NCBI GenBank assembly: GCA_030427635.1
Contig: JAUIBA010000001.1
Coordinates: 62,001-126,000, forward strand
Direction of reading: 5' to 3'
Source: Bacteroidia bacterium
Lineage (GTDB): Bacteria; Bacteroidota; Bacteroidia; Chitinophagales; Chitinophagaceae
DNA length: 64,000 nucleotides
Below, piece after piece: positions 1 to 11,104 of the stretch (within the stretch, counting starts at the first letter, position 1; every line of letters starts with the position of its first letter). A model generated the notes under the pieces. That model had not been told where the DNA came from, did not search any database, and saw only the letters and a list, made by a program, of their open reading frames with translations. A program made the position numbers and the translations under genes.

Positions 1-3000
1 CCGGTATCAGGTCCGGCTAATATTTGCCAGAGCAGTGCGTATACATACACAGCTACACCTGCCGGTGGCACATGGAACAGTAGCACCCCGGGCATAGCAT
101 ATATAGGCACCGGTACCGGAATACTTACGGGTGCTTCTGCAGGTGCTGTAGCAGTTTCATATACTTTAGGCACAGGTTGCCGTACTACTATGCTGGTTTC
201 TGTTACAGCGCTGCCTGCGGCACTTACAGGCTCATCTGCTGTATGTGTCGGTGGTAGTATTTTACACACCAGTACCACAGGTGGTGGCACGTGGTCATCT
301 GAGAATCCGGGTATTGCATCCGTTTCAGCATCGGGTGTGGTTTCCGGTCTTACGGCTGGCACCTCTGTTATCACATATACAATCCCTCCCGGCTGCTATA
401 CGGTTAAGGCAGTAACGGTCAACCCATTACCATCGCCGCTTACCGGCAATACCAGCTTATGCATTGGTACCCCATCTCCATTATCCAGTGCCCCATCGGG
501 CGGCGGCTGGATCAGCAGTAATGCTACAATAGCATCAGTTACATCCGCAGGTGTGGTTACCGGACATGTGCAGAATACGGCACGTATCAGTTATATATTA
601 CCTACGGGCTGCATTGCCAGTACTACTGTTACGGTCAATCTTACACCTTCGGCTATCGTTGGCGCGGGCAACCTTTGTGTGGGTGTGCCCGCTACATTTT
701 CTAACACGGTGACAGGCGGTACATGGTCGTCTTCCCAGCCATCGGTTGCTTCCGTCTCTCTTTCTGGTGGGGTAGTATCTCCGGTCTCTGCCGGTACTGC
801 TCATATCACATACACATTATCTACCGGTTGCTATGTTACAAAGCTGGTTACCGTATATCCTTTACCGGCAGCAGTGTCGGGTGTTCCTGCATTATGTGCA
901 GGCTCCACCGCTACATTTACCGATGCCACTACCGGTGGCACCTGGAGCAGTAGTAATGGCGCTGTAGCATCTGCCGGTAGTACTACCGGCATTGTTGCTG
1001 GTTTGTCGGCGGGCACTGCATATATTTCATATACTTTGCCTTCAGGCTGTGCTACTACATATCTGGTTACTGTGCATCCGCTACCTTCTGGTATCACAGG
1101 CTCAGGTACGGTATGTCTTGGTAGTACATCTGTGCTGTCATCTGCATCCCCGGGTGGTACATGGTCATCTTCTGTACCGGCAGTTGCCTCAGTAGGGCCG
1201 GGAGGTTTGGTTTCAGGCATATCACTGGGTACTACCAGAATTACTTATACACTAGCCGCAGGCTGTTATGTTACCCGTTTGGTTACTGTAAGTCCTTTGC
1301 CTGCTGCCATTACAGGACCATTGACCAGCTGCCCCGGAGTAGGTTTTACATTATCCTGTGCTACAGCGGGTGGTGCGTGGAGCAGTGGGGCGCCCGGTAT
1401 CATTACTATTAATGCCACTACGGGTGCCGTTACCTCTATTGCCGCAGGTACCGCACTGGTCACATATACTATGCCTACCGGCTGTAGTGTATCTGAGACA
1501 GTTACTATTAATGCTGTACCTGATATTGCCGGGCCTTCCGGCATATGTGCCGGAGCCGCTACATCATTTACACACGCCACCCCGGGAGGCACATGGAGCA
1601 GTAGCAGTTCTTTGATAGCTGGCATCAATCCGTCTTCAGGTATTGCTGTGGGTTTTGCTGCCGGTACAGCTACTATTTCTTACACAATGCCGGGAGGGTG
1701 CATCGCATCAAAAACAATAACAGTTGCACCTGCCCCATCAGCCATTACCGGTACTGCATCTGTATGCCCCGGAGCATCCGTAACACTTCTTTCGGCTACC
1801 CCTGGGGGTAGTTGGAGTTCAGGAAACGTATCTGTTGTTACAATAGGCGCATCGTCAGGCATCATGACCGGAGTAGCTCCGGGCATTGCTTCCGTATATT
1901 ATACACTTCCGTCAGGTTGCGCAGTGTCGCGCACTATTACGGTGAATGCTATCCCTGCTACTATTAGTGGTAGTACATCTCTGTGTGCAGGAACTACAAC
2001 TACATATACCATTGCTGCTACAGGTGGCACCTGGTACTCATCAGCTACCGGCATTGCTACCATAGGTGCCACTACTGGTATTCTTACAGCATCAGCTGCC
2101 GGTACTACCACTGTTTCGTACAGTGTAGGCTCAGGCTGTCCTTCTGTAATGACGGTAACAGTCAATACGGTTCCTCCTGCTATTACAGGTGCAGGCTCTG
2201 TTTGTAATGGGTTTGATGTAACACTATCCAACTCACTGTCCGGAGGACTATGGAGTAGTACGGCCACCAGCGTAGCTACCATTGACGCTTCTTCCGGGCT
2301 TTTAACATCTTTAAGCCCCGGTACTACAGTTATTTCATACACTACAGCCGCAGGCTGTGCTGCTACACGCATTTTCAGCGTTAATGTTCAGCCTGCGCCT
2401 ATAGATGGGGCCCCTTCTGTATGTGTAGGTTATACTACTGCATTAAGTAGCTCACCTACAGGCGGTACATGGTATTCCGGCAGTGTAGGCACAGCATCAG
2501 TAACAGCTGCCGGCGGACTTGTTTCCGGCATATCATCAGGCACTGCTGTTATCTCTTACAGAATGGCTTCAGGTTGTCAGTCTGCAGCTACGGTCACGGT
2601 CAGCCCGGTTCCGTCGGCTGTTAGTGGTCCATCCTTATTGTGCGTAGGTAGCACTGCAGTATTTTCAGATCCGGCTCTTGGTGGTGGTACCTGGAGCAGT
2701 TCTAATGCAGTTGTTGCATCTGTGGATGTTGCTTCCGGCTCCGTTACAGCCGTATCAGCAGGTACCTGTACTATCACATATATGATTGGCTCCGGCTGCT
2801 TTATTACTGTGCCACTCAGTGTTATGCCGGTACCGGCTCCCATTACCGGCACTGCCAGTGTTTGTACGGGAATGACCACCACGCTCAATAGCATTACTCC
2901 CGGAGGTACCTGGGTGAGCGCTGTAATGATGCATGCTACAGTAGGTAGTACTACTGGTTTGGTTACTGGTAGTCTTCCCGGCAGTACAGAGGTCTCCTAT

Positions 3001-6000
3001 GTGTTATCTTCCGGCTGTAGCGCATCTGTCACCGTTACCGTTAATCCGCTCCCCGGTCCTGTATCCGGAGTCTCAGGGGTCTGTCAGGAGTCTGTCGCAT
3101 TGATGGGCAACTCTGTTAGCGGAGGTACATGGGCAAGTAGCGTTCCGTCTGTAGGTACTATCGATGCCTTATCAGGTATGTTTACAGGTGTTAGCGCGGG
3201 CATTACTGATATTACATACACGGTAGGAGCAGGTTGTTATGCTACCCGTTCTTTATCTGTACACCCGCTTCCCGTATCCATTGCAGGTAGTAGCACGGTA
3301 TGTGAGGGGCAAAGCATATCGCTGTCCTCCGCTACGTCCGGAGGCATATGGACAGCTTCAGGTACCGCAGCTATCAGTAGCTCAGGTGTGCTTACAGGCA
3401 TTGCCTCAGGTACAGCATCAGTGAGCTATACATTACCGGGCACCGGCTGCACTACTATAAAGGTTGTTACCGTACATCCGTTAGCGGCCAATGCAGGTAG
3501 CCCTGTTACATGTCCCGGATTCAGTGTTACCCTTACAAACCCTAATCCGGGCGGTACATGGTCCAGTGGTAGCACCGCAGTTGCAACGGTTTCAGGCAGT
3601 GGGGTAGTTACAGGTGTTATACCAGGTACTGCCACTATCAGTTATACACTACCTTCCGGCTGTGTTGCTGCTACAGTTGTTACGGTTAATGGGCTATCTG
3701 CCAATACTGGTACTGCCGCGGCATGTATTGGGGAGGCTGTTACATATACTAATGCTGCTCCTGGCGGTACCTGGACATCATCCGATATATCGGTAGCCAC
3801 TATTGATGCTACAGGTAACGTTGCTGCACTTAATGCGGGTACTTCTGTTATTTCCTACACTTATGGTACAGGCTGTGTCGCTACGTCTCTGGTCACAGTA
3901 CACCCTGTATCTCCGGTAGGTGGTAGTAGTGCTGTTTGTGTTGGCCTGTCTGCTTCCTTATCTACTCCCATATCCGGCGGGTCATGGTCATCCCCATCTC
4001 CTTTGGTTGCTGTCCATGCCGTAACGGGTAGCATTACCGGGCTTTCAGCAGGTACTGCCGTTGTGTCTTATACACTTCCCACAGGATGTGTCACCACTGC
4101 TACGGTTACGGTGCATCCGCTTGCCGATATCACCGGCACGGCTTCGGTTTGTGGCACATCATCTGTTACACTTTCCAATGCTGTTGCAGGTGGTACATGG
4201 TCTTCCGCTACACCATCCGTTGCATCTGTCAATATGCTTTCGGGCGTTGTTACAGGTGTTACTACTGGTACTGCCGCTATATCGTATCACTTACCTACAG
4301 GTTGCAGCGCAGGTAGGGTTGTAACAGTTTTTGCAACGCCAGCTCCGGTTACGGGTACCCTCCGTTTTTGTCAGGGGCAGTCCGTAACACTTGCCAGCGC
4401 TACTCCCGGAGGTTCCTGGTCCGTATCTCACCCTGCCACAGCTGGTATTGACCCGCTTACCGGTACCGTCACAGGTCTTGCAGCAGGTACAGCTACAGTA
4501 TCCTATATCATGCCGTCGGGCTGTAGCGCAGTAGCTATAGTTACGGTAGATGCTGCACCACCTGCCATTACCGGTACTACCGCCGTTTGTCAGGGTGCGG
4601 GTACCATACTTACCAATACTATGCCATCCGGTAGCTGGAGTAGCTCTGACATATCGGTTGCTACTATCGGCACATCATCAGGTGCAGTCACTGCGCTCAT
4701 TCCGGGCACCTCTGTTATCAGCTATACATTGCCATCTGGCTGTGCTACAGGTGTTGTACTCACGGTCAACTCGTTACCCACGCCTGTTTCAGGTAGCTCC
4801 CTGTTATGTGTAGGATATTCACTTACACTCAGCAGTAGCCCTTCAGGCGGTTCGTGGAGTTCTTCCAGTGCAGTAGCTGGTGTTAGTCCGGGCTTTGGCA
4901 TCGTTACCGGGCTTTCTGCAGGTACTGCCGTAATAACGTACACACTTGGTACAGGTTGCCGGCAAACTAAAATTGTAACAGTACAGGCACCGCCTGCTAC
5001 TATTTCCGGTCCGTCGCAGGTATGTGTTGGCAGCTCGGCTATGTTTTCTTCTGCTACATCCGGCGGCGTTTGGGTAAGCTCTGCTACTACTATAGCATCA
5101 GTAGATGCAATCTCCGGACTGGTTACAGGCATTGCTCCCGGTACAGCTGTTATCTCCTATTCTCTTTCTTCGGGTTGTAATGCATTGTTTACGGTCTCAG
5201 TAGCGCCGCTTCCTGCTGCCATTTCCGGTGCGTCTGTAGTATGTGAGGGTAGCACTGTCTCGCTTACTAATACTACCAGTGGTGGCTCATGGTCTTCTGC
5301 TGCTACTACTGTTGCTACTGTTTCTGCATCCGGGGTGATATCCGGTATCTCAGCAGGCACCGCTGTCATTTCTTATATATTACCTACAGGCTGTGCCACT
5401 ACTGCCACGGTTACAGTACATCCATTGCCTGCATCGCTTTCAGGCTCCTTTGCCCTCTGTGCAGGTACCAGCACTACTATGGTTTCATCTCCTGCATCAG
5501 GTACATGGAGCAGCGATATGCCTTCAGTAGCATCTGTCGATGCGGCTACTGGTTTGGTATCGGCAGTCACACCAGGCACTGCAGGTATCACTTATACATT
5601 ATCTACAGGCTGCGCTGTGAGGCGTATTGTTACGGTACATCTTACCCCGGCTCCGGTGTCCGGTCCTTCGGTGGTGTGTGCAGGAAGTACCATCCTCCTT
5701 TCTGATATGACTGCCGGCGGTGTATGGACATCACTTGCTGCACCCATAGCCACCGTATCGTCCTCCGGGCTGGTGTCTGGTATTGCAGCAGGTAGTACAA
5801 CTGTATCATATACACTGCCATCAACCGGCTGTGGCGTTGCGTTCCACCTTACAGTAAATCCGGTGCCGGCATCCATATCAGGTATTGTACCGCTTTGCCC
5901 AGGCTCAGCTACCACATTATCCAGTGCCGATGCCGGTGGCTCATGGTCTCTTTCTGCCCCTGTGGCTGTTATTGATGCCACCACAGGTATAACTACAGGT

Positions 6001-6950
6001 GTGTCATCCGGCACTGCTACTGTTTCATACATGCTCACCACCGGTTGCTATACTACAGGTGCTTTGATAGTTAACCCTTTACCCGGTGCAATAGTCGGCT
6101 CATCAGCCATTTGTCAGGGAGCATCAGCTATATATAGTTGCGCCCCGTCTGGCGGCTCATGGTCATCATCTGTTCCGGGCATTGCTGCTATTCATCCGTC
6201 TTCAGGCGTGGTTACCGGCATTTCCTCCGGTTCTGTGTCTGTGAGTTACACACTCCCTACCGGCTGCCGTACTATACGGGCTGTAACTGTTAACCCCTTA
6301 CCAGATGTTATCTCCGGCGACACTGTTGCCTGTATCGGTTTGCCTATGCATCTGCTCAACGCTGTTTCAGGCGGTATTTGGTCAGGTTCGTCAGCCTCTG
6401 TAGCTACGGTCGGCTCTTCCAGCGGTATAGTTACGGGTGTGTCAGCAGGTACGGTTACAGTATCATACACATTACCTACGGGGTGTGGAGTTGCCACTGC
6501 ATTAACCGTTCATCCTGTACCGGCCCCTGTTACAGGTCCTTCTGTACTGTGTCAGGGTAGTTCTGTAATACTTTCATGTGCTACCGTAGGTGGCAGCTGG
6601 CAGAGCGGTACCCCTCTTGTAGGCACTATCAGCACTAGCGGTACCTTTACTGGTATTGATGCCGGTGTTGCCGCAGTTTCCTATATATTGCCCACAGGTT
6701 GCAGCGCTATAAGCTATCTCACCGTCCATCCTTCTTTACCTGTTACTGGTCCATCATCAGTTTGTGCCGGCGATTCGGTCAATTTGTATAATGGCATACC
6801 CGGGGGTACATGGTCATCTTCTGCCCCTGCTGTCGCTGCCATTTCATCTACAGGACGGTTATATGGTAATATTTCCGGCACAGCGGTTATTACATATGCA
6901 TTGCCATCCGGTTGTTACAGCACACACCCAGTAAACGTCAATCCCTGGCC
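1..6950 (+). repeat. 32 tandem protein-coding repeats, about 213-222 bp each
   Basis: Tandem units encode the Ig-like modules of the giant protein. The units have diverged in sequence and keep only the motif residues (two Cys, Trp, GG, SGT/AGT, SYTLP), so this is an old expansion under selection and not a recent nucleotide-level duplication. The boundary is approximate; the last unit ends near NVNPWP. Confidence 0.9.
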
Positions 6951-8292
6951 AATTGCATATTATGTTACCGGTGGTGGTATTTTCTGTGAGGGTGGGGCAG
7001 GCGTGCCTATAGGGCTCACAGGTTCTATGTCTGGGTTTGTATATAAACTGTATAATGGCACCACAGAGGTATTATCAGTACCCGGTACAGGTACTGCATT
7101 CAGTTTTGGCATTTATTCCGTAGCGGGTACTTATACCGCAATTTCTATAAATCCCGTTACCGGTTGTCGTCGTGCTATGGCTTTAGATGCCACAGTATCA
7201 CCTACGCCTTATGGGCCACCTTCAGTATCAGTTACACCTGATGCCGATACGGTATGTGCCGGTACCTCGGTACACTTCTCTCCCATTCCGGTAGGTGGTG
7301 GTGCGGCACCTGCATATCTGTGGTTTGTCAATGGTAGTCTGGCAGGACTGGATACCTCATATACATATATCCCTTCACCCGGAGATGTGGTTACATGCCG
7401 TCTCTCCAGCAGCTCCCCATGTGCTGTTCCTGCCACTGCAGAAGCTTCTGCTTCAGTAGCAGTACTTCCCGTTGTCAATCCATCTGTTTCAATAGTGGCT
7501 ACACCCGGCACCGTCTTATGTGCTGGTGTACCAGTGTCATTTATGACCACTCCCGTGTATGGTGGCTCTGCGCCGGCATACCTGTGGCAGGTTAATGGTA
7601 CTGTTATTGGTTCGGGTGTGTCTTACAGCTACACACCAGCCGATAATGATATGATAGTCTGCCGTATGGTATCTGATGAGCGTTGTCCGGTTAGTGACAC
7701 TGTTATCAGTAATACTATCACAATGGACGTAAACCCACAGCTCATTCCGGCTGTTACAGTCAGCGCTACTCCTGGCTTTAATGTTGTACCGGGTACCAGT
7801 ATTACTTTTTCTGCAACTGCAGTTAATGCCGGGTCTGCTCCTTCATATCAATGGAAGATTAACGGTACTGCCATTACTGGTGCTACAAGTGCTGTTTTTG
7901 TATGGAGTGTATTTGCCGGTGGGGAAGAGGTTAGTTGCGAGGTCACCAGTCATGGCGACTGCGGTGGCTACACCACATCAGATGCCGGTATTGTCTCATT
8001 TGGCACAGGTATATCTGTTACCGGTGGACATTCTGATGTCTGGTCTATGTTCCCTAATCCCTCTAATGGAACATTTACTGTTTCAGGAGATGCAGGCAAT
8101 ACAGGTTTTGTACATATCACAGTTACTGATGTGCCCGGCAGGCAGGTATACCATACTCAGGTGTCTGCCGTTAATAATCATGTACGGCAAACTATATCTC
8201 TTGGTAGTGAGCTGGCCAATGGTATTTATCTGGTAACAGTAAAAGGTGCAGATGGAAATATTGCCGTATTCCATCTCATGCTGGAGCGGTAA
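1..8292 (+). CDS. Giant Ig-like repeat surface protein with T9SS sorting domain (5' end outside window)
   Basis: The frame is open from base 1, so the start lies upstream; the first ATG in the window (190) falls inside a repeat. Thirty-two tandem repeats of about 71-74 residues fill bases 1 to about 6950. Each has the pattern VC-G, GG-W-SS, an S/AGT followed by a beta strand ending SYTLP, then GC and a VTV-P linker. All 32 keep the same two cysteines (about 51 residues apart) and the tryptophan, which suggests one disulfide per unit. The units resemble bacterial Ig-like group 2 (BIG2) domains. After them come a divergent domain, three PKD/Ig-like domains (about 7210-8010) with the W-VNG and SYTP pattern, and a final 85-residue type A T9SS sorting domain (FPNPSNGTF near its start, GIYLV near its end). 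Role inferred: secreted, cell-surface adhesin or filament. Convergent with smpB. Family is firm, function is not known. Confidence 0.9.
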   Translation, partial: PVSGPANICQSSAYTYTATPAGGTWNSSTPGIAYIGTGTGILTGASAGAVAVSYTLGTGCRTTMLVSVTALPAALTGSSAVCVGGSILHTSTTGGGTWSSENPGIASVSASGVVSGLTAGTSVITYTIPPGCYTVKAVTVNPLPSPLTGNTSLCIGTPSPLSSAPSGGGWISSNATIASVTSAGVVTGHVQNTARISYILPTGCIASTTVTVNLTPSAIVGAGNLCVGVPATFSNTVTGGTWSSSQPSVASVSLSGGVVSPVSAGTAHITYTLSTGCYVTKLVTVYPLPAAVSGVPALCAGSTATFTDATTGGTWSSSNGAVASAGSTTGIVAGLSAGTAYISYTLPSGCATTYLVTVHPLPSGITGSGTVCLGSTSVLSSASPGGTWSSSVPAVASVGPGGLVSGISLGTTRITYTLAAGCYVTRLVTVSPLPAAITGPLTSCPGVGFTLSCATAGGAWSSGAPGIITINATTGAVTSIAAGTALVTYTMPTGCSVSETVTINAVPDIAGPSGICAGAATSFTHATPGGTWSSSSSLIAGINPSSGIAVGFAAGTATISYTMPGGCIASKTITVAPAPSAITGTASVCPGASVTLLSATPGGSWSSGNVSVVTIGASSGIMTGVAPGIASVYYTLPSGCAVSRTITVNAIPATISGSTSLCAGTTTTYTIAATGGTWYSSATGIATIGATTGILTASAAGTTTVSYSVGSGCPSVMTVTVNTVPPAITGAGSVCNGFDVTLSNSLSGGLWSSTATSVATIDASSGLLTSLSPGTTVISYTTAAGCAATRIFSVNVQPAPIDGAPSVCVGYTTALSSSPTGGTWYSGSVGTASVTAAGGLVSGISSGTAVISYRMASGCQSAATVTVSPVPSAVSGPSLLCVGSTAVFSDPALGGGTWSSSNAVVASVDVASGSVTAVSAGTCTITYMIGSGCFITVPLSVMPVPAPITGTASVCTGMTTTLNSITPGGTWVSAVMMHATVGSTTGLVTGSLPGSTEVSYVLSSGCSASVTVTVNPLPGPVSGVSGVCQESVALMGNSVSGGTWASSVPSVGTIDALSGMFTGVSAGITDITYTVGAGCYATRSLSVHPLPVSIAGSSTVCEGQSISLSSATSGGIWTASGTAAISSSGVLTGIASGTASVSYTLPGTGCTTIKVVTVHPLAANAGSPVTCPGFSVTLTNPNPGGTWSSGSTAVATVSGSGVVTGVIPGTATISYTLPSGCVAATVVTVNGLSANTGTAAACIGEAVTYTNAAPGGTWTSSDISVATIDATGNVAALNAGTSVISYTYGTGCVATSLVTVHPVSPVGGSSAVCVGLSASLSTPISGGSWSSPSPLVAVHAVTGSITGLSAGTAVVSYTLPTGCVTTATVTVHPLADITGTASVCGTSSVTLSNAVAGGTWSSATPSVASVNMLSGVVTGVTTGTAAISYHLPTGCSAGRVVTVFATPAPVTGTLRFCQGQSVTLASATPGGSWSVSHPATAGIDPLTGTVTGLAAGTATVSYIMPSGCSAVAIVTVDAAPPAITGTTAVCQGAGTILTNTMPSGSWSSSDISVATIGTSSGAVTALIPGTSVISYTLPSGCATGVVLTVNSLPTPVSGSSLLCVGYSLTLSSSPSGGSWSSSSAVAGVSPGFGIVTGLSAGTAVITYTLGTGCRQTKIVTVQAPPATISGPSQVCVGSSAMFSSATSGGVWVSSATTIASVDAISGLVTGIAPGTAVISYSLSSGCNALFTVSVAPLPAAISGASVVCEGSTVSLTNTTSGGSWSSAATTVATVSASGVISGISAGTAVISYILPTGCATTATVTVHPLPASLSGSFALCAGTSTTMVSSPASGTWSSDMPSVASVDAATGLVSAVTPGTAGITYTLSTGCAVRRIVTVHLTPAPVSGPSVVCAGSTILLSDMTAGGVWTSLAAPIATVSSSGLVSGIAAGSTTVSYTLPSTGCGVAFHLTVNPVPASISGIVPLCPGSATTLSSADAGGSWSLSAPVAVIDATTGITTGVSSGTATVSYMLTTGCYTTGALIVNPLPGAIVGSSAICQGASAIYSCAPSGGSWSSSVPGIAAIHPSSGVVTGISSGSVSVSYTLPTGCRTIRAVTVNPLPDVISGDTVACIGLPMHLLNAVSGGIWSGSSASVATVGSSSGIVTGVSAGTVTVSYTLPTGCGVATALTVHPVPAPVTGPSVLCQGSSVILSCATVGGSWQSGTPLVGTISTSGTFTGIDAGVAAVSYILPTGCSAISYLTVHPSLPVTGPSSVCAGDSVNLYNGIPGGTWSSSAPAVAAISSTGRLYGNISGTAVITYALPSGCYSTHPVNVNPWPIAYYVTGGGIFCEGGAGVPIGLTGSMSGFVYKLYNGTTEVLSVPGTGTAFSFGIYSVAGTYTAISINPVTGCRRAMALDATVSPTPYGPPSVSVTPDADTVCAGTSVHFSPIPVGGGAAPAYLWFVNGSLAGLDTSYTYIPSPGDVVTCRLSSSSPCAVPATAEASASVAVLPVVNPSVSIVATPGTVLCAGVPVSFMTTPVYGGSAPAYLWQVNGTVIGSGVSYSYTPADNDMIVCRMVSDERCPVSDTVISNTITMDVNPQLIPAVTVSATPGFNVVPGTSITFSATAVNAGSAPSYQWKINGTAITGATSAVFVWSVFAGGEEVSCEVTSHGDCGGYTTSDAGIVSFGTGISVTGGHSDVWSMFPNPSNGTFTVSGDAGNTGFVHITVTDVPGRQVYHTQVSAVNNHVRQTISLGSELANGIYLVTVKGADGNIAVFHLMLER

Positions 8293-9775: not shown

Positions 9776-10681
9776 TTATACAGGTGGGAGTAACATAGAA
9801 ACCCCTTTCAGCGGTGCTCCCCATAGTCCGGGTGCCAGATATACAACAAACGAAAAAAGCGCTATCGCAAAAAACAGATTTACTAGCGCTACATATTTTA
9901 TCCCAAAATGATTCTTGGAAGGCACATGATCTTTCGACAGTCTGAAGAATCCCAGCATATATGCGCCCCCCGTAGCTGCTATCAGCATAATGGTAATGAT
10001 AAACAGCTCTCTGTCTATCAGGTTCCATCCCAGTGCTATATCTGTACGCGAAAGAAACTTAACTCCTATGGTTATTGCTATAAAGCCCATCACCACTTTT
10101 ACTCTGTTCAGTACCTCTTTTGAGGGCACGAGCACATCCAGTATTTTAGGGAAAAGAAAAGGCAATGACAATCCTGCCGAGAAACCTGCGAGACTGATAA
10201 AGGGACCCAGCACTCCGGCAGAGTAGCCGGTAAGCGCCGCTACTACTACCATAGGTACAATAGAGGATATGGACATAGCAGGTAGCGTAAGCGCCATATA
10301 CATAATACCACTAATGTTGCCCGTTTTTGCCCGGGTAGATGCAGCATTTGCCCACGAAGCCGGCAACTTAAAGTCAAAAACACCCAGCAGGGATATTCCC
10401 AGCCCCAGGAATAATCTGCAAAGTGCAAAGTTCAGTAGCCAGTGCGAGGTAAATCTCAGTAGCCCGGTCGCATTGGCTATTACAGAACCCAGTGCCCCCA
10501 CTAAGGAGAACATAAAGAAAAGTGTGATGGTATATATGAGTATATTCCGGTTCCCCTCTGCTTTAGGCTTGCTTTTAGGTGCCAGATATCTCCGGGTAAT
10601 GGGCAATACAGCATAAATAAATGGCGTAATCACAGTAAGCAGCCCCACTGCAGCTGCTTTCAGAAATACGCCGGCTATCAT
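9776..10681 (-). CDS. DsbD-type transmembrane domain protein lacking redox cysteines
   Basis: 301 residues from the ATG at 10681 (a TTG at 10696 is the alternative). Multi-pass membrane protein that follows the transmembrane domain of Bacteroidota DsbD/CcdA proteins along its length: GLLTVITPF-YAVLP in the first helix, FDFKLPASWAN, SGIMYMALTL, LGPFISLAGFSAGLSLPF, VKVVMGFIAI-IGVKFLS, DRELF and a C-terminal PGLWGAPLKGVS. In DsbD the first and fourth helices carry the cysteines that move electrons (TPC and SCTGP). Here they read TPF (F21) and ISSIVP (S140). The only cysteine is C88, at another position. The usual periplasmic Ig-like domain and C-terminal thioredoxin domain are also absent. It is therefore a DsbD relative unlikely to do thiol-disulfide transfer; function unknown. 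Follows the receiver-domain gene on the same strand. Confidence 0.75.
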   Translation of the reverse strand: MIAGVFLKAAAVGLLTVITPFIYAVLPITRRYLAPKSKPKAEGNRNILIYTITLFFMFSLVGALGSVIANATGLLRFTSHWLLNFALCRLFLGLGISLLGVFDFKLPASWANAASTRAKTGNISGIMYMALTLPAMSISSIVPMVVVAALTGYSAGVLGPFISLAGFSAGLSLPFLFPKILDVLVPSKEVLNRVKVVMGFIAITIGVKFLSRTDIALGWNLIDRELFIITIMLIAATGGAYMLGFFRLSKDHVPSKNHFGIKYVALVNLFFAIALFSFVVYLAPGLWGAPLKGVSMLLPPV

Positions 10682-10717
10682 TACCGCATAGCTCAATATA
10701 TGAAGTTTGAGTGTTTG

Positions 10718-11104
10718 TTAATTCAGTCCATCTATAATGGCCACTATCTTCTCAAATGCATCCTCATCCTTTATTACATAATCTTCTGCACCCTTACGTA
10801 TTGTCTGTAGCGCAGTGCCATAAGCATCCTGGCTGGATAGCATGATTACGTGAATATATTTATTGATCTTCTTTATCGATTCCAGAATCTGCATACCATT
10901 TGCAGCAGCTTTATCTTCCGAGTCAAGGTTAAAGTCCAGAATAATTACATCCGGCTGCTCTCTGAGATGTTTCAGGCACTCTTCTCCCGTCTTATAAAGC
11001 GTTATTTCATGAAATGTTCTGGTAGACAGGTAGTCTTCCAGCAGGGTAGACATCATTTCATCATCATCTACCACAAATATTTTCTTAACCATTTTGCCTG
11101 CCAT
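10718..11104 (-). CDS. Stand-alone response regulator receiver domain
   Basis: 128 residues, one CheY-like receiver domain and no output domain. Acidic pocket D13-D15, phosphoacceptor D57 (IILDFN), switch S90/S91 (MLSSQDAYG) and K112 (VIKDED) are present. It should relay phosphate from a histidine kinase by protein contact; no kinase is in this window. ATG at 11104 has a GGAG six bases upstream; a second ATG at 11092 is possible. It has its own promoter (TTG-N20-TAAATTTG) and a 5' leader of about 70 bases containing a perfect 10-bp hairpin. Confidence 0.9.
   Translation of the reverse strand: MAGKMVKKIFVVDDDEMMSTLLEDYLSTRTFHEITLYKTGEECLKHLREQPDVIILDFNLDSEDKAAANGMQILESIKKINKYIHVIMLSSQDAYGTALQTIRKGAEDYVIKDEDAFEKIVAIIDGLN

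Follow-up and report, generated by a model that had tools for sequence, protein, structure and literature searches.

The cysteine pair is the defining feature of DsbD and CcdA, and the locus described here raises the question of what a DsbD membrane domain does when both of these cysteines are gone. The gene lies in the window, i.e., the whole 64,000-nucleotide stretch of Bacteroidia DNA that was analysed, directly downstream of a response-regulator gene. The features referred to in the text are listed below, with codon and residue numbers of the DsbD-like protein counted from the ATG at 10681.

9776..10696, minus strand: cysteine-free stand-alone DsbD transmembrane domain gene; 306 aa from the TTG at 10696, 301 aa from the ATG at 10681
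10619..10621, minus strand: codon of F21, the site of the TM1 electron-transfer cysteine (TPC to TPF)
10442..10444, minus strand: codon of H80, found in 29/33 clade members and 3/34 thioredoxin (Trx)-fused relatives
10418..10420, minus strand: codon of C88, the only cysteine of the protein, unconserved across the clade
10415..10417, minus strand: codon of R89, an arginine in the third hydrophobic segment, found in 33/33 clade members and 0/34 Trx-fused relatives
10280..10282, minus strand: codon of P134, found in 32/33 clade members; V, A, T or S in Trx-fused relatives
10262..10264, minus strand: codon of S140, the site of the TM4 electron-transfer cysteine (SFSC to SISS)
10718..11104, minus strand: single-domain response regulator of 128 aa, the next gene upstream, at a distance of 21 bp (TTG) or 36 bp (ATG)

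The minus-strand frame at 9776-10681 is open for 301 residues and closes with a stop at 9776, while the plus strand in the same register contains many stops. The TTG at 10696, located five codons 5' of the ATG, is a candidate start and fits the N-termini of relatives P0002-P0004 slightly better.

A DsbD membrane domain without the cysteine pair

The sequence-only reading had described a DsbD transmembrane domain that lost both electron-transfer cysteines and lacks thioredoxin and Ig-like domains, and each of these points was borne out. PF02683 (DsbD_TM) matched residues 9-212 of the DsbD-like protein with 33.9 bits against the Pfam cut-off of 27.1 and was the sole Pfam model above its cut-off; a placement in another transporter family, which that reading had named as counting against it, was not obtained. 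The thioredoxin and DsbD_N models gave no match at E values up to 10, and the NCBIfam DsbD subfamily model NF001419 reached 24.2 bits against a cut-off of 330. Among the features of a DsbD reductase, the TM1 cysteine (TPC), the TM4 cysteine (SCTGP), the Ig-like domain and the thioredoxin domain are all missing, whereas the motifs TPxxxxxxP, LPxSW, DRE/DRD and PGLWGAPL are retained.

The positions of the lost cysteines were located by comparison with CcdA. A profile of 81 relatives aligned with the solved CcdA structure 5VKV (E 8e-10), and the cysteine motifs of 5VKV, SPC and TPC, share columns with the canonical TPC and SCTGP cysteines. Because the CcdA and DsbD cysteine motifs are in register, F21 and S140 occupy the electron-transfer positions. 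The core helices of CcdA align with the DsbD-like family; in contrast to CcdA, which has six helices and needs its cysteine pair, the DsbD-like protein has two further C-terminal hydrophobic segments (eight in total by our hydropathy count) and no pair.

The genome of the window contains only one other PF02683 match, a 725-aa DsbD with an N-terminal region, the TPC and SCTGP motifs and a C-terminal thioredoxin-like CVNC motif; the presence of such a canonical copy elsewhere in the genome was one of the checks put forward with the sequence-only reading. The DsbD-like protein corresponds end to end to the transmembrane (beta) domain of this Bacteroidota DsbD and is 44% identical to it over the membrane domain. 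The residues required for thiol electron transfer are absent, and we read the DsbD-like protein as a redox-dead paralogue of the DsbD transmembrane domain.

A distinct clade maintained by selection

We compared the cysteine sites in 185 proteins, comprising the 82 matches listed by the first protein search and the best 120 of 589 profile matches. Pairwise alignment revealed that, among these listed matches, 25 short proteins of the DsbD-like type lack both cysteines (25/25), the outcome for which the sequence-only reading had proposed to test the orthologues. Within these 25, site 21 is occupied by F in 13 and Y in 12, site 140 by S in 24 and Y in one, and an arginine is found at position 89 in every protein. 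The exception at site 140 is P0012, a cysteine-free protein that reads AYIVP at the TM4 site and carries the source name 'MFS family permease'. Among the remaining 160 relatives, 130 can be read at both cysteine sites and all of them keep both cysteines (130/130); the other 30 are truncated or fail to align at one site or both. A full thioredoxin tail is missing from 10 of these 130 and from one of the 30. All 11 fall outside the cysteine-free clade, and in most of them a thioredoxin tail begins or the membrane domain is incomplete. In the fetched genomic loci, the short stand-alone frames, which by our reading represent 14 distinct loci, are all devoid of both cysteines, whereas the remaining frames retain the pair. 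L057, considered as a lone-cysteine intermediate, was rejected: the apparent loss is an alignment gap, and the sequence reads SFSCTSGIIGP.

A tree of 69 rows chosen by us (35 stand-alone, 34 Trx-fused) separated the two groups by a single branch with support of 100/100. The same split was recovered with an SH-aLRT value of 100 without the columns surrounding the two cysteine sites, R89 and P134, and again with the 11 cysteine-keeping proteins that have no full thioredoxin tail added. Orthologues with intact cysteines, which would have told against the sequence-only reading, were therefore not found; the cysteine-keeping relatives lie outside the clade in these trees.

Substitution rates were estimated by the NG86 method. 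Three close pairs gave dN/dS values of 0.022/0.797, 0.040/0.870 and 0.014/0.857, i.e., ratios of about 0.02-0.05, and a fourth, more distant pair gave 0.184/2.599; between the window gene and its nearest genome relative, silent sites are saturated. The cysteine-free clade is under strong purifying selection.

Residues that set the clade apart

Residue composition was compared between 33 distinct stand-alone domains and 34 Trx-fused domains. R89 is present in all stand-alone domains and in none of the Trx-fused ones, G73 in 33/33 and few, respectively, and L94 in 33/33, with F at this position in 34/34 Trx-fused domains. H80 (29/33 vs 3/34), T78 (30/33), P134 (32/33) and S140 (31/33) are nearly as constant among the stand-alone domains. 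Conversely, E202 is found in 34/34 Trx-fused domains and is gone from the stand-alone clade. Relative to Bacteroidota DsbD, the clade has thus gained R89, G73, L94 and P134 and lost E202.

The best conserved membrane segments are TM1, TM3, TM4 and TM6, i.e., the core rather than the loops. When the topology of DsbD is assumed, the predicted cytosolic loops contain 14 K+R and the predicted periplasmic loops four, and under this assumption H80 and R89 would lie near the periplasmic side of TM3. C88 had been singled out as the only cysteine left. It is indeed the only one in the protein, but we rejected it as a functional residue and give it no special weight, because position 88 is not conserved and is F in many relatives.

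Distribution and gene neighbourhood

The stand-alone gene is present in 11 of the 35 genomes of the genus and, in the family sample, in at least 11 of 394 genomes and in 4 of 101 genera. The culturable relative Nemorincola caseinilytica also carries a copy. Among 396 genomes sampled from the order, no stand-alone frame was found in the 24 genomes of other families that had a match at E 1e-70. All 20 genomes carrying the stand-alone gene have a second PF02683 match, displayed as a long canonical frame in 19 of them and counted only in the other (G368); within the genus, the stand-alone clade is 39-46% identical to the canonical domain. A few genera of one family keep the stand-alone redox-dead paralogue by selection.

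In the genus, canonical dsbD is preceded by a gene of one DsbD_N-like family in 20/20 sampled loci (L241-L260), as identified by Pfam in the three scanned loci and by BLAST similarity in the other 17, and it often precedes thioredoxin or cytochrome-assembly genes. This separate DsbD_N-like gene is present although DsbD itself also has an N-terminal region. The surroundings of the stand-alone gene differ. Its directly upstream gene is a signalling gene in 15 of 20 genomes, of which 11 have a single-domain response regulator at this place and four a class III nucleotide cyclase; this is the conserved linkage with regulator, kinase or cyclase genes that a component of a His-Asp phosphorelay or cyclase pathway should have. 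The regulator lies on the same strand in six genomes, that of the window included, with gaps of 21-84 bp. In the other five, a related regulator is divergent, with a hybrid kinase and a second regulator beyond it, and there co-transcription does not apply. The cyclase is on the same strand in all four genomes, with gaps of 25-106 bp and one gene cut by a contig end; three of the four were called by Pfam and the fourth by 51% identity. The remaining five genomes have no regulator, kinase or cyclase next door, the neighbours there being MBOAT, cation efflux, START_2, a TPR protein and one protein without a Pfam match. Since the genomes are related, these 20 do not amount to 20 independent events.

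Homologues of the regulator, kinase and cyclase were found within 2.5 kb of none of the 92 canonical loci, in a search in which the flanks often reached less than 1 kb upstream and the queries came from the stand-alone loci. With signalling genes beside one type and DsbD_N-like genes beside the other, the canonical genes sit in a redox setting and the stand-alone genes mostly in a signalling setting. No thioredoxin gene was found beside the stand-alone gene in the loci examined, and no fusion of the DsbD-like domain to a signalling domain was found among the matches listed. A TPR protein upstream of a cyclase (L238) was considered as a kinase; it matched the kinase query through its TPR part only and Pfam detected TPR only, so it was excluded from the kinase count.

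Other neighbours mostly differ between the stand-alone loci. At one locus, the regulator and the DsbD-like gene are immediately preceded by a gene for an inward-rectifier-type potassium channel (L035:10695-11675); at another, a gene that joins an Nramp transporter to a universal stress protein domain (L036:15304-17175) lies downstream of the DsbD-like gene. In the window itself, the plus-strand frame at 190-8292 encodes 2700 aa with dozens of Ig-like repeats of ~65 residues each (GGxWSSxxPxVASV...GTAxISYTLPTGC) and a tail resembling a secretion sorting domain; a similar repeat protein is encoded elsewhere in the genome (L270 10925-16000).

The associated regulators, kinases and cyclases

The window regulator consists of a receiver only (PF00072, Pfam), in which D13-D15, D57, S90/S91 and K112 appear, on our reading, to be the usual receiver residues. 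At an identity of at least 50%, its family occurs in 21 of the 35 genus genomes, including 11/11 with the stand-alone gene and 10/24 without it (Fisher p 0.0009, a value that ignores relatedness and follows a cut-off chosen after the list had been seen). Away from the stand-alone gene, the regulator adjoins a hybrid kinase in 6 of 13 fetched loci, with no such kinase in the other seven. One of these six loci also contains a cyclase: in L174 (G005:C755:1-3000), regulator, nucleotide cyclase and hybrid kinase lie side by side, and no stand-alone gene was found in that genome.

Pfam detected TPR repeats in two cyclases. Among the hybrid kinases, that of G017 has TPR, while the G003 and G002 kinases combine HisKA, HATPase and receiver domains and gave no TPR match; we read a putative HPt domain at the hybrid kinase C-terminus, where Pfam gave none. 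The genome of the window encodes an orphan TPR-type hybrid kinase on contig C37, which shares 66% identity with the G017 kinase and near which the 18 kb fetched contain no regulator of this family, and two related cyclases on contig C8. In the regulator tree, the regulators beside TPF and TPY copies fall apart with support of 85/89, the TPF ones not forming one strict clade. This is a weak hint that there were several associations or that a larger cluster underwent differential loss.

Proposed function and alternative explanations

The usual location of the cysteine-free copy next to signalling genes suggests an electron carrier remodelled to serve in a signalling pathway. These neighbours, which lay outside the sequence-only reading, favour a signalling role without proving it; we infer the role from gene order, and adjacency is not interaction. 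We consider the chances about even that signalling through kinase and response regulator, or through a cyclase, recruited the redox-dead DsbD fold as its partner in the membrane.

The chief rival to this signalling reading is a plain transporter, which would be an ordinary carrier of the LysE-superfamily type for an ion, amino acid or metal, placed beside signalling genes by co-regulation or descent. We regard this as unlikely, although it is the alternative that survives best. The DsbD family was put in the LysE superfamily, as a relative of its transporters, by Tsu-type sequence statistics (PMC4608589), and an elevator motion has been proposed for CcdA (PMC7329351). Conservation of the membrane core rather than the loops and the new intramembrane R89 would suit a transporter, as would the one member beside a cation-efflux gene and the one beside Nramp-Usp. 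On the other hand, the relation to the LysE superfamily comes from family-level statistics, and the DsbD-like protein has no direct match to any of its models; no transporter family model besides PF02683 passes its cut-off, no metal-binding or other substrate motif is evident, and signalling neighbours are far commoner than transport genes.

Less probable still is a regulatory pseudo-subunit of the canonical DsbD/thioredoxin pathway, acting for instance by partner binding or competition. A second PF02683 match accompanies the stand-alone gene in all 20 genomes, as a long canonical frame in 19 of them, and within the genus the clade is 39-46% identical to the canonical domain. Against this stands the genomic position, as the stand-alone gene, unlike canonical dsbD, is not beside redox genes, together with the loss of canonical-specific residues such as E202.

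That the protein still carries electrons, with thiols borrowed from a partner protein or from C88, is very improbable and was nearly rejected. TM1 retains its TPxxxxxxP frame, and the proline that follows the TM4 site is likewise still present, but both sites are changed in all 25 database members among the matches listed, C88 is variable and no thioredoxin gene adjoins the gene in the loci examined. The suggestion that a partner supplies the chemistry lost its support because the membrane domain is entirely free of cysteine in 10 of the 33 distinct stand-alone members. Finally, a decaying dsbD duplicate, which the missing outer domains and active site might suggest, is refuted by the selection signal of the three close pairs, the frames read having no internal stop and the clade being long-lived across four genera.

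Returning to the signalling reading, the pathway in the genome of the window would comprise the TPR hybrid histidine kinase of contig C37, the single-domain response regulator upstream and the DsbD-like protein. The membrane core and the new H80 and R89 positions may form a site reached from the periplasm. For CcdA, an elevator-like motion of TM1 and TM4 has been proposed (PMC7329351), and a similar rocking of these helices might be kept in the DsbD-like protein as a conformational switch without electron transfer. The cytosolic face could talk to the response regulator or, in a sister genus, to a nucleotide cyclase. As to direction, two options appear about equal: the protein may report a signal, as a receptor or transceptor, or it may be the target of the phosphorylated regulator, e.g., as a gated transporter.

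Transporter-like receptors are known to feed two-component systems, as in CbrA with its SLC5-like domain. The likeness to CbrA-type receptors would be a transporter-derived membrane fold linked to His-Asp signalling, here by gene order. In contrast to these receptors, a protein descended from electron carriers would make up the membrane part, encoded separately and, among the matches listed, never fused to a kinase. A literature search over texts available in part found no report on cysteine-free DsbD proteins or on a link to response regulators, which is weak evidence of absence.

Somewhat more tentatively than the recruitment itself, we propose that a thiol carrier turned into a new membrane signalling protein, i.e., a DsbD-fold receptor or regulator-gated unit. 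It would have kept the elevator core, and replaced the redox centre by an aromatic residue, a serine and a new arginine site. Its partners would be TPR-sensor phosphorelays in the one genus and, in a second, nucleotide cyclases.

For annotation, our analysis carries a warning, as several databases call cysteine-free members thiol:disulfide interchange protein DsbD and one calls such a protein an MFS permease. The cysteine-free clade is a natural variant for asking what the DsbD fold itself does, and if the proposed role is true, this small elevator-like fold can do something besides electron carriage.
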